Below, piece after piece: positions 23,876-32,764 of a DNA stretch of 32,968 bases. The notes beneath the pieces are model-generated. The model had not been told where the DNA came from, did no database searches, and worked only from the letters and a program-made list of their open reading frames with translations. The number at the start of each line of letters is the position of its first letter. Position 1 is the first letter of the stretch. A program made the position numbers and the translations under genes. Source of the stretch: Pseudomonadota bacterium (GTDB taxonomy: Bacteria; Pseudomonadota; Alphaproteobacteria; Micropepsales; Micropepsaceae); NCBI GenBank assembly GCA_018242105.1, contig JAFECP010000019.1:23278-56245 (forward strand), in the 5' to 3' direction.

Positions 23876-24916
23876 TCAGCCGCCGAGATCGATGACCGCA
23901 CGCCGGTTTTGCGGCTCGCGAACATTGGGACCGGTCGCAACCAGCGGATCGTGGAAGCTCTTCCCGACAGTGCTGATCTCATTGGCGCTCAGTCCGTCCG
24001 CGACCATCTGGCTCTTCACGGCCGACGCGCGCCGCTCAGACAAAGCCTGATTATAGCTGTCAGAGCCGACGGTATCGGTATGGCCAGTGACGAGGATGCG
24101 GACGGCTTGCGATTGCTGTGCCGCCCGCACGGCTTCACCGACAACGCTCACAGCCTCTGGCGTCAGGTTCGATTTGTTGAAATCGAAGAAGACGATGAAG
24201 GTTTTAACCGGCGCAGGCGGGGGCGGCGGAGGCGGAGGAGGTGGTGGCGGCGCCGGCGGCTCCTGATAAGCGACGCGTTCGCCAGAGGATGGATACCAGC
24301 GAATGCCCGCCATCACGACGTGTTCGGCAAGGTCATGGCTTTTGAGAGGCGCAGCAAAGTTGTCGTTCGAGCCGTTGCGCAGATTGCGATAGTGATAATC
24401 GACGTACAGATCGAGATTGGGTGTCGCTTCGTAAGTCAGCCCGCCGATGCCTTGCCACATGAACCTGGCGCCGCTGCCGGTGCTGAAATGTCCTGCACCG
24501 AACGGATTGTCGAATTTGATTCTGGAATTTCCAACGCCCGCGCCAGCGCCGAGTGAGAGCCGAAGACGGGGCATCAGGCGCACATCATAGATACCATTGA
24601 TCATCGCCGAGCGGACTTCCGCGTGGCCACTTGACGGGACCGATGCGCCCCCGCTCGTGAAATCGTTCGTGCTGTGCCGGTCCCAGGCATCTTCGAACTC
24701 GATACGGAACGGCGCATCGAACTTATATCCGAATGCGGCGGAAAGAATCGCCGTGTCTTTTGTGCTCAGTTTGCCATCGATTCCGTCGCCAACGACTCTT
24801 GGGTTTCTCAAATGATCCCATCCGGCCCCAAGGCCGATGTACCAACCGTCCGCCGCGAGCGCTGGCGAAACGAAAAGCGCTGCCACACCGGCCAGCATAA
24901 TTGTACGCAACTGCAT
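23876..24916 (-). CDS. OmpA-family outer-membrane protein with polyproline linker
   Basis: Outer-membrane barrel joined to a peptidoglycan-binding domain. The 346-residue product has a signal peptide (MQLRTIMLAGVAALFVSPALA, cleaved before ADGWY), a beta-barrel region (about 22-215, GWYIGLGAGWDHLR at the entry), a PPAPPPPPPPPPPPPAP linker, then the C-terminal OmpA domain KTFIVFFDFNKSNLTPEA, ILVTGHTDTVGSDSYNQALS and ERRASAVKSQMV, with the Asp and Arg of the diaminopimelate-binding site. GGAGG is six bases before the ATG; the six codons further upstream are not needed. A paralogue lies at 26155-27186. Confidence 0.93.
   Translation of the reverse strand: MQLRTIMLAGVAALFVSPALAADGWYIGLGAGWDHLRNPRVVGDGIDGKLSTKDTAILSAAFGYKFDAPFRIEFEDAWDRHSTNDFTSGGASVPSSGHAEVRSAMINGIYDVRLMPRLRLSLGAGAGVGNSRIKFDNPFGAGHFSTGSGARFMWQGIGGLTYEATPNLDLYVDYHYRNLRNGSNDNFAAPLKSHDLAEHVVMAGIRWYPSSGERVAYQEPPAPPPPPPPPPPPPAPVKTFIVFFDFNKSNLTPEAVSVVGEAVRAAQQSQAVRILVTGHTDTVGSDSYNQALSERRASAVKSQMVADGLSANEISTVGKSFHDPLVATGPNVREPQNRRAVIDLGG
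24215..24250. repeat. Run of twelve proline codons in the first OmpA-family gene
   Basis: Twelve consecutive proline codons (CCN on the minus strand), interrupted just outside by alanine codons. The DNA is a GGN-rich tract on the plus strand. Tracts of this sort are prone to replication slippage, so linker length could vary between strains. Confidence 0.85.
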
Positions 24917-25379
24917 GGATACCTCCTCATACACACAGGAGGATCGCTCCCCCGACCACGCGCTTTCTGAAGCTGCGGCACAGAGCTAACGGGTTGAGTG
25001 CACGAAGGTTTCCGCATTGCAGCGTGTTTAACTGTGGCTGTTGCGGCGTTGAATGTCTGGAAGGTTGCGCGAAGATTTCCGTCTGAGAGACGGTGAGAGC
25101 TCCGCGCCGGTGCCAGATGCGCCATCCCCGCAGGGAATAAAAGTTGCTTTGAAACTTCGTCTGTGGGTGTCGAGCGTTGGCTGCTCGGGAAACCGCGTCA
25201 TGGTGAAAAGTTCGGCGGTCGGGACAACTTCAGATAGTCTGTGTAAGGCTGGGTAGCAATTTCGATACTGATCGTCGCTGGTTTCGCAGTGGAACTTAAC
25301 GATATCCCGCCAGAAAGAGTCGCGGGGCATTTCGTGTGATGCTATGGTCCGCGCCGCAGCGAGACATGTGGGTATTCGA
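24917..25379. other. Divergent promoter region, no gene recognised
   Basis: Separates the minus-strand OmpA-family gene from the plus-strand secreted protein gene. Open frames here lack a ribosome site or a recognisable protein pattern. A small hairpin CCGTCT-GAG-AGACGG lies at 25079-25093. A motif pair GGAATAA (25134) and CGTCTG (25158) resembles ECF-sigma promoter elements on the plus strand, but the spacing (17 bases) is at the loose end of what I would expect, so this is only a suggestion. Confidence 0.4.
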
Positions 25380-26154: not shown

Positions 26155-27186
26155 TTATGTACCGCTGCCTTCACCGAGCTGGATCACAGCACGGCGGTTC
26201 TGAGGCTCGCGAACGTTCGGGCCGGTCGGAACCAGCGGATCGTCGAAGCTCTTACCAACTGTCGAGATACCGGCACCGTCGATGCCCTGGGCAACCAGGC
26301 CATCCTTCACAGCAGCAGCGCGGCGCTCAGAGAGAGCCTGGTTGTAGCTGTGCGAGCCGACCGTGTCGGTATGACCCGTCACGAGGATCTTGACCATGCC
26401 CGTGGACTTCGCCGTCGATGCGGCCTGCGCCACGACCGACTGAGCTTCCGCGGTCAGGTTCGACTTGTTGAAGTCGAAGAAGACGATGAACGTCTTCACC
26501 GGCGGCGGGGGCGGCGGAGGCGGCGGGGGCGGCGGGGGCGGCGGAGGCGGCGGGGCCGATTCCAGATACCAACGAACACCGATCATCGCGACCTGCTCGT
26601 TCATGTCACGCGGCTGCGCGTTATACAGAACGAAGCTCGTGCCGTAGTTCTTGTTCACGCTGAGCGAGCGATAACGGTAGTCCAACGTCAGGTCGACATT
26701 GTCCGTCACGGAGTAGGAAACACCTCCGATGAACTGGTACATGAAGCCGCTGTGCTTGCCGGTCATGTAGGTGAACGGCGCGATCGAGGTGTTGATGTCC
26801 GCACGGCCAATACCGGCGCCGGCGCCAAGGCTCACGTCCCAGCGATCGGAGAGCGGAATATCCCAGATCACGTTGAAGAGATCGGAAAGAATGCTGACGC
26901 GGCCATTAAAGGCCCCCTTCACGTCGTGGCGGTCCCACCCAATTTCATCTTCGACGCGGATGTTGTTGCCAAAACGATAACCGAACGTACCAGCGACGAG
27001 CGCCGTGGAGTCGGTAGGGGTATTGATGCGTACATTTGTCGGGCCCGAGAAAGTCTGCTCGAAAGAACCCATGCGGTCCCAGCCGACGCCCAGACCAAGA
27101 TACCAACCAGTGGCATCACTCGCGACGGCCGGCGCGCTCAGCGCCATCGCCGCAACGCCCGCCAGGGCGATCATTCGAATTTTCAT
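26155..27186 (-). CDS. OmpA-family outer-membrane protein with polyproline linker, paralogue
   Basis: A 343-residue paralogue of the OmpA-family protein at 23876-24916 with the same plan: signal peptide MKIRMIALAGVAAMALSAPA (cleaved near VAS), barrel (GWYLGLGVGWDRMGSFEQTF), 18-proline linker, and OmpA domain KTFIVFFDFNKSNLTAEA, ILVTGHTDTVGSHSYNQALS, ERRAAAVKDGLV. The C-terminal domains of the two copies are nearly identical around VGKSFDDPLVPTGPNVREPQ (copy 1 VGKSFHDPLVATGPNVREPQ), pointing to a local duplication. GAGGG precedes the ATG. The barrel surfaces differ more, so loops may have diverged in exposure or ligand. Confidence 0.94.
   Translation of the reverse strand: MKIRMIALAGVAAMALSAPAVASDATGWYLGLGVGWDRMGSFEQTFSGPTNVRINTPTDSTALVAGTFGYRFGNNIRVEDEIGWDRHDVKGAFNGRVSILSDLFNVIWDIPLSDRWDVSLGAGAGIGRADINTSIAPFTYMTGKHSGFMYQFIGGVSYSVTDNVDLTLDYRYRSLSVNKNYGTSFVLYNAQPRDMNEQVAMIGVRWYLESAPPPPPPPPPPPPPPPPPPVKTFIVFFDFNKSNLTAEAQSVVAQAASTAKSTGMVKILVTGHTDTVGSHSYNQALSERRAAAVKDGLVAQGIDGAGISTVGKSFDDPLVPTGPNVREPQNRRAVIQLGEGSGT
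26500..26553. repeat. Run of eighteen proline codons in the second OmpA-family gene
   Basis: Eighteen consecutive proline codons (CCG/CCC/CCT) between the barrel and the OmpA domain, seen as a GGCGGCGGGGG-type tract on the plus strand. A nine-base register repeats (CGG-CGG-GGG/AGG). It is six prolines longer than in the paralogue, consistent with slippage at this tract. Confidence 0.9.
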
Positions 27187-29440: not shown

Positions 29441-30037
29441 TCAGCTCGGCGCCGGTATGATCGCGACTTTGCGCGGGCGCTCATAGAAGACGTCGGTCAT
29501 TTCTTGTGATCCGACCAGAAATCTCCCGATCGGCGATGTGTAGTAATACGTCACTTCGGCGAGGATAACACTGCAGGTATTTGCCTTACAGGGCGTAAAA
29601 GCCCCTTTGGTGCTGTCCCAGGTGGACATGATGGGCTGAGTAAGCGTGATGGGGCTGTTTACGGCGCGGCCGCTTACGGCTTTGGGGGCGCCGCCGGACC
29701 ATGTTTGACCTTGGCTCCACGCCACCGTGCCGTTTCCTGTTCCATCGCTTTGAACGCTCGAAATGATGATCGTTATATTATTTACCGAAAACGGCGCGAT
29801 GATCGCAGACGCGGCGTTGAAAATATCCGACATATCGCTGCTCGATACTTTTGACGCCTGCGCAACAAGGTCCGCGGCGCTTGACGCCATCATCGTCACC
29901 TTCTGATGGCATTCCAATGCGTCGCAGATTTCAATCGTGCCAAGAAGCAGCGTTCCCATCACCGGAGCGATCAGCGCAAATTCGACGGCGGCCAGACCGC
30001 CGCGCGCCTTCATGAGATCGCGTATGCGCATCAGCAT
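29441..30037 (-). CDS. TadE/TadG-like pilus assembly protein (second gene)
   Basis: Pseudopilin-like membrane protein of the Flp/Tad system. The 198 residues contain the N-terminal transmembrane motif GGLAAVEFALIAPVMGTLLL (13-32) with the conserved Glu in VEF, as in TadE, followed by a periplasmic domain with three cysteines (residues 43-160 region). It starts seven bases inside the end of the upstream TadE-like gene; a second ATG two codons later gives a TGATG overlap instead, so the exact start is uncertain. It pairs with the upstream gene, and no Tad motor or secretin genes are in the window. Confidence 0.88.
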   Translation of the reverse strand: MLMRIRDLMKARGGLAAVEFALIAPVMGTLLLGTIEICDALECHQKVTMMASSAADLVAQASKVSSSDMSDIFNAASAIIAPFSVNNITIIISSVQSDGTGNGTVAWSQGQTWSGGAPKAVSGRAVNSPITLTQPIMSTWDSTKGAFTPCKANTCSVILAEVTYYYTSPIGRFLVGSQEMTDVFYERPRKVAIIPAPS

Positions 30038-30606
30038 GGGGCGCCCGCGTTAAAAGGCTCCGTGCGGAACGCCGACGAGGAAAAAAGCATGTAGAATCCC
30101 GTCGTCGTGTTCTGGAGCAGCGTGGACATCAGGGGCGTGAGGATTTTCCACGGGTAGAAACTCCGGAGCAAAACCACGCTGCAAGAGGTTGTTGGGTCGA
30201 TTTCCAGCTTTGTGGGGTCGATCATGCCGGTTCCATCGGTCACGCTGGGATAACTCGACGAGCCAAACGAGGCATAGGAGCGCAAATCCACCTGGAGATT
30301 TTGGGAGCAGTCGGTGCTGCTGATGAGCCCCTGCACCTCGCTGCAAATGCTATCCGTCAACTGCTTCTGTGTAAGCGTCCCGGACAGCGTGCCCGTGCGT
30401 ATCTGGCGGGCGGTGTCATCGGTTGCATTCTGCAGCATCGCGCTGCCGAAAAAAATCACACCAGTCTCGATGATGCCGAACAGAAACAGAAATAGCACTG
30501 GCGCGACCATCGCGAATTCAATCGCAGCCGATCCTTTTTCACCATCTTTGCGCCAACGCCGGCGCAGGCGCTTGCACGATTCGGCGATCGCAAAGCTCAG
30601 GCCCAT
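30031..30606 (-). CDS. TadE-like pilus assembly protein (first gene)
   Basis: A 191-residue TadE-like protein. A basic N-terminus (SCKRLRRRWRKDGEKG) is followed by SAAIEFAMVAPVLFLFLFGI (26-45), the pseudopilin-type membrane helix with the conserved Glu, then a periplasmic part with cysteines (ICSEV, STDCSQ, TTSCSV, GAPC at the very end). It is translated together with the second TadE-like gene through a short overlap. It is divergent from the VWA protein gene across 250 bases that must carry promoters in both directions; I see no clear consensus there. Confidence 0.9.
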   Translation of the reverse strand: MGLSFAIAESCKRLRRRWRKDGEKGSAAIEFAMVAPVLFLFLFGIIETGVIFFGSAMLQNATDDTARQIRTGTLSGTLTQKQLTDSICSEVQGLISSTDCSQNLQVDLRSYASFGSSSYPSVTDGTGMIDPTKLEIDPTTSCSVVLLRSFYPWKILTPLMSTLLQNTTTGFYMLFSSSAFRTEPFNAGAPC

Positions 30607-30856: not shown

Positions 30857-32764
30857 ATGCGATTGGAAAATTCTTGGGGCGTCTTCAAGACGCAACTGAG
30901 AAAGTTCGCGCGCGAGCGCCGCGGCAACGTTGCAATGATTTTCGCAATGTCGCTTATCCCGATCACGATTGCTGCAGGAGCAGGACTGGATCTTTCGCGC
31001 GCCCTTATGGTGCGCGCACGTCTGGCCGAAGCTCTCGACGCGGCGGGCCTTGCGGTGGGCGCCACCCAGAATCTGACCAACGATCAGATGACAAAGCTTG
31101 CCAACGCGTATTTCGACGCCAATTACACCGCCGATTCATCCTTTGGCGCCATGCCCGTTGTTTCGGTTGTTCCGGGCAATGGGAGCGTTACTCTTACAAC
31201 TACTGTCAACATGCCAACCACGCTGATGCATGTGGTTGGCATAGACAATCTGACAGTCGGCTATTCTTCGAAAGTCGTTTGGGGTGAGACGAAACTGTGG
31301 GTGTCTCTGGTGCTCGACAACACCGGCTCTATGTGCGAGCCGGACAGCAGCCCATGTCCGAACGACACAAACCCCAACACCAAGATCAACGCGTTGAAAT
31401 CGGCGTCGCACAGCTTGCTGACGACATTGCAGAACGCTTCCGCCAATCCGGGGGACGTCATGGTGTCGGTCGTGCCTTTTGCGAAAGACGTCAATGTGGG
31501 CACTTCCTACGTCAACGCAGCCTGGATCGATTGGACGGATTGGGAAACCGCCGCTCCGGCGAGCGACATACCGAGCTCATCGGTAGGCCCTGGGAGCAGT
31601 TGCCCATGGGGCGGCTACAGCAAATATAACAGGTGCCTCAGCCAGCCTGGCGGAACGATGGGTTCTGACGGCGTGACGATGAACACAGTAAGCACCGTAC
31701 CGAGCACCGGCACCTATGCCGGTTATATTTGCCCGGGTTCGATTCAATCTTCGAATTCGGGACAAGCCGGACATTATTATAACGGCTGCTGGACAAGCAC
31801 GCCCACCAAGACACAGTCCAGCGTCCGGACGGTGACCCAGCCGACCAAGGACAAACAGACCTGTTCGCAGACCGGCAGCGGCCCTGTCACTTGCGTCGAG
31901 CAAAGCGGCTACCCTCAAAACAACGGTTCCAGCAGCACCTCAACCTCGACATCGACCTCGTCCGGATATTCGGGCGATAGCGTCGTGAATTCGTCATCGA
32001 CGACAAACGTCAACACCAGCGACGGAAGCAAGAGCTGCAGCGGCTCTGGCAGCGCCAGGAAGTGCACTTGGACGCGCACCATCACCGAGAATAAAAACAC
32101 CATTACAACAACCAATACGGGGATCGGGCCCTACAATCACAACTGGGTCGTCAACAGTCATTCGACGTGGCGCGGCTGCATCATGGACCGCGATCAGAGC
32201 GACGACGTCAATGACGCGACGCCAGGCACGAAATTTCCGGCCGAAAATTCCGACTCCTGTCCGCTCGCCCCGGTATTTCCGATGACAAGTCCGTTGCCGG
32301 CCACCCAAACGGATATGGCGGCAATGTTCACCAATGTGGGCGCTGCGATCGATGCGATGGTGGCCAATGGCGGTACGAACCAGACAATCGGCCTGGCGCA
32401 CGGCATGCAAACGCTGGTGAGTGGCTTGCCCTACAGCGCGCCTGCGCTGCCCGCCAATACAACGCGCTACATCATCCTGCTGAGCGACGGTCTCAACACG
32501 ATGGATCGCTGGTACGGAAACGGCTCTTCGCAGTCGAGCAGCGTCGATAGCCGAATGTCCGCGGCATGCACGAACGCCAAGAGCCAGGGTTTTGTGATTT
32601 ACACAATCTTCCTGGATCTGAACGGAACGCAGGGCAACTCATCGGTGCTGCAGAATTGTGCGACCGACTCGAGCAAATATTTCGATCTGACGACAACGGG
32701 CTCGGTCATCACCACCTTCAACAACATCGCCCAGCAGATCACCCAGCTACGCGTCGCACAATAG
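30857..32764 (+). CDS. TadG-like von Willebrand factor A protein with large Ser/Thr-rich insertion
   Basis: Membrane-anchored VWA protein linked to Tad pili. The 635 residues start with RRGNVAMIFAMSLIPITIAA (21-40), the TadE/G-type helix (PF13400-like), then a periplasmic region with the MIDAS entry VSLVLDNTGSMCEP (D154, S158). A long insertion, roughly 240-470, separates it from the second half of the VWA domain, which has ANGGTNQTIGLAHGMQTLVS and TTRYIILLSDGLNTMDRW. The insertion contains many cysteines and Ser/Thr repeats (SSSTSTSTSTSSGYSGD) and is low in hydrophobic residues. A GTG start eight codons upstream is possible; GGGG spacing favours the ATG. Divergent from the two TadE-like genes, so probably part of one locus. 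Confidence 0.88.
   Translation: MRLENSWGVFKTQLRKFARERRGNVAMIFAMSLIPITIAAGAGLDLSRALMVRARLAEALDAAGLAVGATQNLTNDQMTKLANAYFDANYTADSSFGAMPVVSVVPGNGSVTLTTTVNMPTTLMHVVGIDNLTVGYSSKVVWGETKLWVSLVLDNTGSMCEPDSSPCPNDTNPNTKINALKSASHSLLTTLQNASANPGDVMVSVVPFAKDVNVGTSYVNAAWIDWTDWETAAPASDIPSSSVGPGSSCPWGGYSKYNRCLSQPGGTMGSDGVTMNTVSTVPSTGTYAGYICPGSIQSSNSGQAGHYYNGCWTSTPTKTQSSVRTVTQPTKDKQTCSQTGSGPVTCVEQSGYPQNNGSSSTSTSTSTSSGYSGDSVVNSSSTTNVNTSDGSKSCSGSGSARKCTWTRTITENKNTITTTNTGIGPYNHNWVVNSHSTWRGCIMDRDQSDDVNDATPGTKFPAENSDSCPLAPVFPMTSPLPATQTDMAAMFTNVGAAIDAMVANGGTNQTIGLAHGMQTLVSGLPYSAPALPANTTRYIILLSDGLNTMDRWYGNGSSQSSSVDSRMSAACTNAKSQGFVIYTIFLDLNGTQGNSSVLQNCATDSSKYFDLTTTGSVITTFNNIAQQITQLRVAQ

Follow-up and report, generated by a model that had tools for sequence, protein, structure and literature searches.

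A nested insertion in the split VWA domain of a TadG/CpaL-type protein, a candidate contact arm of a Tad pilus tip

The 224-aa insertion found in a TadG-like VWA protein is best explained as an exposed contact arm of a Tad pilus tip protein of the TadG/CpaL type, a reading to which we give a probability of roughly 0.6. The identity of the gene product as a TadG-type minor pilin, encoded at its locus, is more certain than the arm role. The gene resides in a stretch of 32,968 nucleotides, which was analyzed as a whole (the window), and its features are listed in Table 1. The product would be the large tip subunit of the Tad pilus. Together with two neighboring TadE-like minor pilins, its pilin-like N-terminus would dock on the Flp filament end, and its VWA domain would point outward with the metal site. 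The insertion would exit the VWA near the metal site and form a disulfide-bearing fold (module A), with a long, two-stranded, Ser/Thr-rich arm (module B) projecting from it. Module B would be the surface meeting ligands, i.e. substrate polysaccharide, surfaces or other cells, and the length and type of the arm may be tuned species by species.

Table 1. Position of the TadG gene, its segments and the adjacent minor pilin genes in the window
Feature	Coordinates	Strand	Details and evidence
TadG/CpaL-type VWA protein gene	30857..32764	+	Intact ORF, ATG 30857, stop 32762-32764, 635 aa
N-terminal helix (25-69) and pilin-like module, aa 1-146	30857..31294	+	PF13400, AF2 model
VWA first half, aa 147-209	31295..31483	+	Weak VWA_2 match; structural matches begin at residue 142
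MIDAS DNTGS, D154/T156/S158	31316..31330	+	Alignment A1
Insertion in the VWA, aa 210-433	31484..32155	+	Boundaries from 51-row alignment and alignments A2, A3
Module A, aa 230-314, Cys 249, 260, 292, 311	31544..31798	+	4 Cys kept in A3
Module B, aa 315-425, Ser/Thr-rich, Cys 336, 346, 394, 403, nested in module A	31799..32131	+	Alignment, models
Ser/Thr-rich low-confidence stretch, aa 357-385, far end of module B	31925..32011	+	pLDDT
VWA second half, aa 434-635, with T507 and D544 of the MIDAS	32156..32761	+	Alignment A1; VIA-align ranges 142-633
TadE-like minor pilin B	30031..30606	-	PF07811, E 1.4e-15; G-x4-E site GSAAIE; divergent from the TadG gene
TadE-like minor pilin A	29441..30037	-	PF07811, E 6.2e-9; G-x4-E site GLAAVE; overlaps the end of minor pilin B

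A TadG-type protein at a tad locus

The first-pass annotation took the ORF for a VWA TadG-like protein in which an insertion divides the VWA between the MIDAS DxTxS motif and the second half of the fold, and both points are borne out. The Tad domain PF13400 is matched at aa 23-68 with 24.8 bits, above the Pfam cut-off of 22.3. VWA_2 is matched at aa 151-214 with a score of 20.5 vs. a cut-off of 27, and falls below it because the VWA domain is split; NCBIfam gave no meaningful match to the 635-aa TadG. In the 39 rows of alignment A1, the MIDAS residues located before the insertion are kept in 39 (D154), 37 (T156, replaced by S in two) and 38 rows (S158), those located after it in 38 (T507) and 39 rows (D544). 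The aligned residues indicate a MIDAS that is complete and split across the insertion.

The canonical prepilin site G/A-x4-E/F has no match within the first 45 residues. G-x5-F is found in its place, the F at position 29 being present in 31 of 39 A1 rows, and the exact motif is also missing at the start of most A1 relatives. On these sequence grounds, TadG is not classed as a canonical, peptidase-processed type IV prepilin.

The genome of the organism (3.2 Mb, 93.7% complete) encodes one VWA-TadG, which is its one PF13400 protein above cut-off, and two PF07811 proteins above cut-off, both beside TadG on the opposite strand. TadG is thus linked to TadE-like minor pilins and, as the same contig reveals, to the tad/cpa locus. 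A Flp pilin maps just past the window end, along with Pfam signatures of a prepilin peptidase, RcpC/CpaB, a CpaC-type secretin, CpaD, a CpaE-like AAA protein, a CpaF-type ATPase and two T2SSF proteins (TadB/TadC-type); CpaC, CpaE, CpaF, TadB and TadC are presumed names, assigned from domain and gene order. The divergent TadE-TadE/TadG trio is found in 27 of 30 family loci (L001-L030), no TadE being detected in L010 and L011, and one in L024, cut by the contig end. In a second set, TadE genes matching these two sequences are found in 8 of 29 loci, but the other loci belong mostly to other families, for which the two TadE queries may be too distant.

The tip-subunit reading is supported by the presence on one contig of TadG, two TadE, the Flp pilin and the tad machinery, by the recurrence of the trio, and by the Tad domain, the complete MIDAS and the match of the VWA fold to pilus adhesins (see below). 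Against it count the missing exact prepilin site and the confidence of the structural models, which is modest for the full-length protein and poor for the insertion.

Three further features of the region were noted. A 169-aa protein featuring the N-terminal pilus-secretin domain PF13629 only, without the secretin part, is encoded just past the window end (L062:5167-5673, - strand), with TadG and the Flp pilin on either side of it. A different contig (G000:C23:3702-3836, + strand) holds a further Flp/Fap pilin match above cut-off. Two neighboring OmpA-family outer-membrane proteins (23876-24934 and 26155-27186, both - strand; Pfam OmpA, OMP_b-brl) each have a poly-proline linker (more than ten prolines) joining the barrel to the OmpA domain.

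Architecture of the insertion

Alignment of the relatives sets the boundaries of the insertion at aa 210-433, columns which make up a slot of 224 aa in the 51-row alignment. The first ~20 slot residues (VNVGTS..WIDWTDW) are common to nearly all relatives, hence the truly variable part is restricted to ~196 aa (230-425). The insertion is nested, an outer module A of ~100 aa with four Cys (249, 260, 292, 311) hosting an inner module B of 111 aa with four more (336, 346, 394, 403). Ser and Thr account for 44% of residues in aa 315-425 vs. 25% over the whole protein, a 111-aa maximum reached in none of 2000 shuffles of the protein. The description of a ~230-residue insertion rich in Ser/Thr and Cys was therefore close to the mark, the term "repeated" excepted: no tandem or direct DNA repeats were found in the insertion, so that the feature is one of composition, and an origin from repeat arrays is rejected. 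All four Cys of module A are present in 17/17 rows of alignment A3, rows picked because they have module A; the four Cys of module B are retained in 13-16 of the same 17 rows. At E <= 10, Pfam matched nothing in the insertion.

Two AlphaFold2 models were obtained, which share most sequences and are not independent. The full-length model (18 sequences, pLDDT 65, pTM 0.45) is modest, and predicts a long N-terminal helix (25-69), pilin-like strands and a split VWA, with two long strands in module B (310-339 and 402-432). The model of the insertion alone (17 sequences, pLDDT 59, 96 of 243 residues below 50) is poor, and strands are predicted again at 321-339 and 402-420. Residues 357-385 have pLDDT values below 50 in the insertion-alone model, and fall in blocks of 53-69 in the full one. 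The pairing of the two strands of module B as an arm, and of the Cys as disulfides, is presumed.

VIA-align of the full model retrieved SpaC (Z 20.4, 206 residues, 2.5 A), Mfa5 (20.2), PilB (18.2), RrgA (17.8), GBS104 (17.4) and integrin I domains (about 18). PilB is aligned from model residue 40-41 on, and the VWA matches start at residue 142. Many VWAs unrelated to pili score alike, and the matches support the VWA fold, not a function. A search of PDB sequences returned nothing significant, the best match being Mfa5 (E 0.17). The insertion-alone model found no PDB match at E <= 0.001 with Foldseek (best 0.18), and with VIA a best Z of 5.0, a level common without relationship. A known fold for the insertion was thus looked for with no useful PDB match; the model being weak, this is no proof of a new fold. 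The first-pass annotation would have been contradicted by the same insertion recurring, with a known fold, in all close TadG homologues, which applies in half: the closest relatives do share the insertion, but no fold was matched to it, and more distant relatives carry other inserts in the slot.

Selection was estimated on one pair, TadG and its nearest relative (L031). The dN/dS values are 0.05 for module A plus leader, 0.09 for module B, 0.06 and 0.08 for the first and second half of the VWA, and 0.13 for the pilin module, ratios which are rough because dS exceeds 1 in three of the five segments. The pilin module diverged more (74% identity) than either insertion module (82% each). Positive selection is rejected for this pair, dN/dS ranging from 0.05 to 0.13 in all five segments, and both inserted modules appear to be under purifying selection, as far as so rough an estimate from coding sequences tells.

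Module B may be regarded as a mere Ser/Thr-rich spacer, disordered and perhaps O-glycosylated, whose sole task is to lift or shield the VWA. Its composition, the low confidence of aa 357-385 and the widely varying length between relatives would suit such a spacer, which we nonetheless deem unlikely: the conserved Cys, the dN/dS of 0.09, which speaks against a freely drifting segment, and the two long strands predicted in both runs argue that module B is not simply disordered, and no glycosyltransferase was found among the ORFs run through Pfam, which covered the tad locus only. Of the two options initially proposed, a disordered region or an extra adhesive domain, disorder fits ~30 residues at best (aa 357-385), and a folded, potentially adhesive module is the better one, favored by the conserved Cys, the dN/dS of 0.05-0.09 and the predicted long strands.

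Diversity of the VWA slot

The family search gave matches in 69 of 96 genomes, and 103 of 290 genomes of a class sample match the family profile. Fifty-one of the 72 listed ORFs were aligned, same-gene duplicates, truncated ORFs and most second copies being left out. Slot lengths were taken from this alignment, since the distribution over 90 ORFs is inflated where the second half of the VWA is matched only partly. They range from 48 to 224 aa, the protein of the window and its nearest relative having the longest slots, and 11 of 51 rows feature a slot of at least 187 aa, corresponding to the long module B form. Insert types were assigned by hand and reflect our judgement: among rows with module A, 12 have no inner piece or a tiny one, 11 a middle-sized and 11 a long one, while 17 of the 51 rows have no module A and host short or different inserts. 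Module A extends to other families, occurring in records titled Caulobacteraceae, Microvirga, Tardiphaga and Bradyrhizobiaceae. Among named relatives, a Rhizomicrobium MAG is the nearest (84% identity), and a gene with the same match is placed in the genus of the window, so that the organism is probably a Rhizomicrobium or close to that genus. Across the alphaproteobacterial relatives examined, an insertion in the VWA slot is general. The feature is mostly ordinary in kind, a long nested variant of a piece differing greatly between relatives, and the notion that it is unusual for TadG finds no support, both on account of this range and because an insertion in the slot has been described for CpaL (PMC12607857).

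On a tree of the core built without the slot (51 rows), insert types require at least 16 changes, presence of module A six, and long B five. The long-B rows fail to form a single clade (AU p about 1e-51). What the AU rejections establish is limited to insert types being spread over more than one clade, be it via gain, loss or exchange. Module A distances partly track core distances (Spearman 0.50, a value reached in 0/999 permutations, 33 rows), as expected if A descended mainly vertically and the changes fell in B. A recent exchange of module A finds no support here.

The many changes of insert type could also denote slot diversity driven by pilus-dependent phages, the inserts being decoys or variable patches escaping phage contact. 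No excess of amino-acid change is seen in the insertion between the two closest relatives, and to our knowledge no phage of this organism has been reported, both of which make a phage-driven origin quite improbable.

Two or more complete TadG-VWA ORFs are present in 10 of 90 fetched loci, a set which includes some genes twice (L008 and L034 are the same gene pair). The tandem copies at L041:3446-7476 and L045:128-3301 (both + strand) have clearly different inserts, those at L034 have inserts that are alike. In L022:1432-3207 (+ strand), the slot hosts about six tandem units of ~24 residues with two Cys each, units resembling the single one of short inserts in other families. Inserts rich in Gly/Asn/Trp or Gly/Asn/Tyr, without module A, are found in L029:1426-2850 (+ strand) and L020:823-2265 (- strand).

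As a more tentative reading, the split point of the VWA could be a general docking slot, in which unrelated small disulfide modules might be exchanged, also between tandem TadG copies of one locus, and one pilus could carry tips with different binding arms. The candidate modules would be the Cys-module A, A with the nested arm B, the tandem ~24-residue Cys units, and the Gly/Asn/Trp-rich segments.

Comparison with known pilus tips

CpaL of Caulobacter crescentus is the closest counterpart (PMC12607857). It is 626 aa long. Its pilin-like module extends to about residue 147 and its VWA begins at 148, where shortly behind the MIDAS DxTxS a beta-rich region of ~180 aa interrupts the domain; an AlphaFold3 model places CpaL at the pilus tip. 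TadG has similar length (635 aa), the same split, a 224-aa insertion, and the same MIDAS pattern (D154/T156/S158/T507/D544 vs. D160/T162/S164/T470/D515 in CpaL); the split position was matched via the printed residue numbers and our own alignment, not by insert sequence. The shared split and the tip model favor a tip subunit. Differences concern the location of cpaL, which lies outside the main pilus cluster, while the TadG gene lies at it, and the insertion, modeled in CpaL as two six-stranded beta-barrels and predicted here as a module with a nested long-stranded arm.

The same source reports that cpaL was recovered in a phage-resistance screen, and that its deletion lowers piliation, enhances adherence and the synthesis of holdfast, and stimulates the pathway for surface sensing (PMC12607857). 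The gain of adherence is a poor fit to a simple adhesin, and the loss of piliation and the stimulated pathway would agree with an insertion that serves chiefly in force sensing or in assembly of the tip complex, the role suggested for VWA parts of CpaL and PilY1, and not as a ligand arm. Module B is wholly missing in some same-genus relatives that keep the rest, which is unexpected for an essential assembly part, and we consider this role rather unlikely. The contact-arm reading finds a parallel in PilB of Streptococcus sanguinis, which has a role in adhesion, and in which arms flank the MIDAS and host proteins are bound via the VWA (PMC8179133). With the purifying selection on modules A and B, this argues for a ligand arm. 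PilB, RrgA and GBS104 match the TadG model (Z 17.4-18.2), and PilB and RrgA are pilus-adhesin VWAs with extra arms around the MIDAS. Yet the three belong to pilus systems of other kinds, and their arms, known from solved structures, may be unrelated to modules A and B.

Another counterpart are the KilN tip pilins of Myxococcus xanthus, whose description proposes that TadEFG-type minor pilins widely form variable tips (PMC12075869). Likenesses are a TadG homologue whose outer domain varies, its production together with two smaller minor pilins, and the disulfides predicted in KilN. In the consulted portion of that report, the KilN4 outer domain is said to resemble no characterised PDB protein, and VWA is not mentioned for it. 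M. xanthus has four KilN tips with a predation function (PMC12075869), the organism analyzed here one trio: a KilN-type set of alternative tips was not found in its genome at 93.7% completeness.

The split-VWA layout of CpaL, the variable tips and the PilB arms mean that the architecture is already in print. No description of the comparative diversity of the TadG insertion slot was found by title and start of abstract, in a search mostly outside subscription journals and preprints. The split-VWA layout of Tad tip proteins has been described for one protein, CpaL, in the part of the literature covered (PMC12607857). The protein of the window and its relatives indicate that the split point is where the tip proteins of this group differ most, in both length and type. 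Should the inserts bind ligands, the slot would give a clue to the targets of a Tad pilus.
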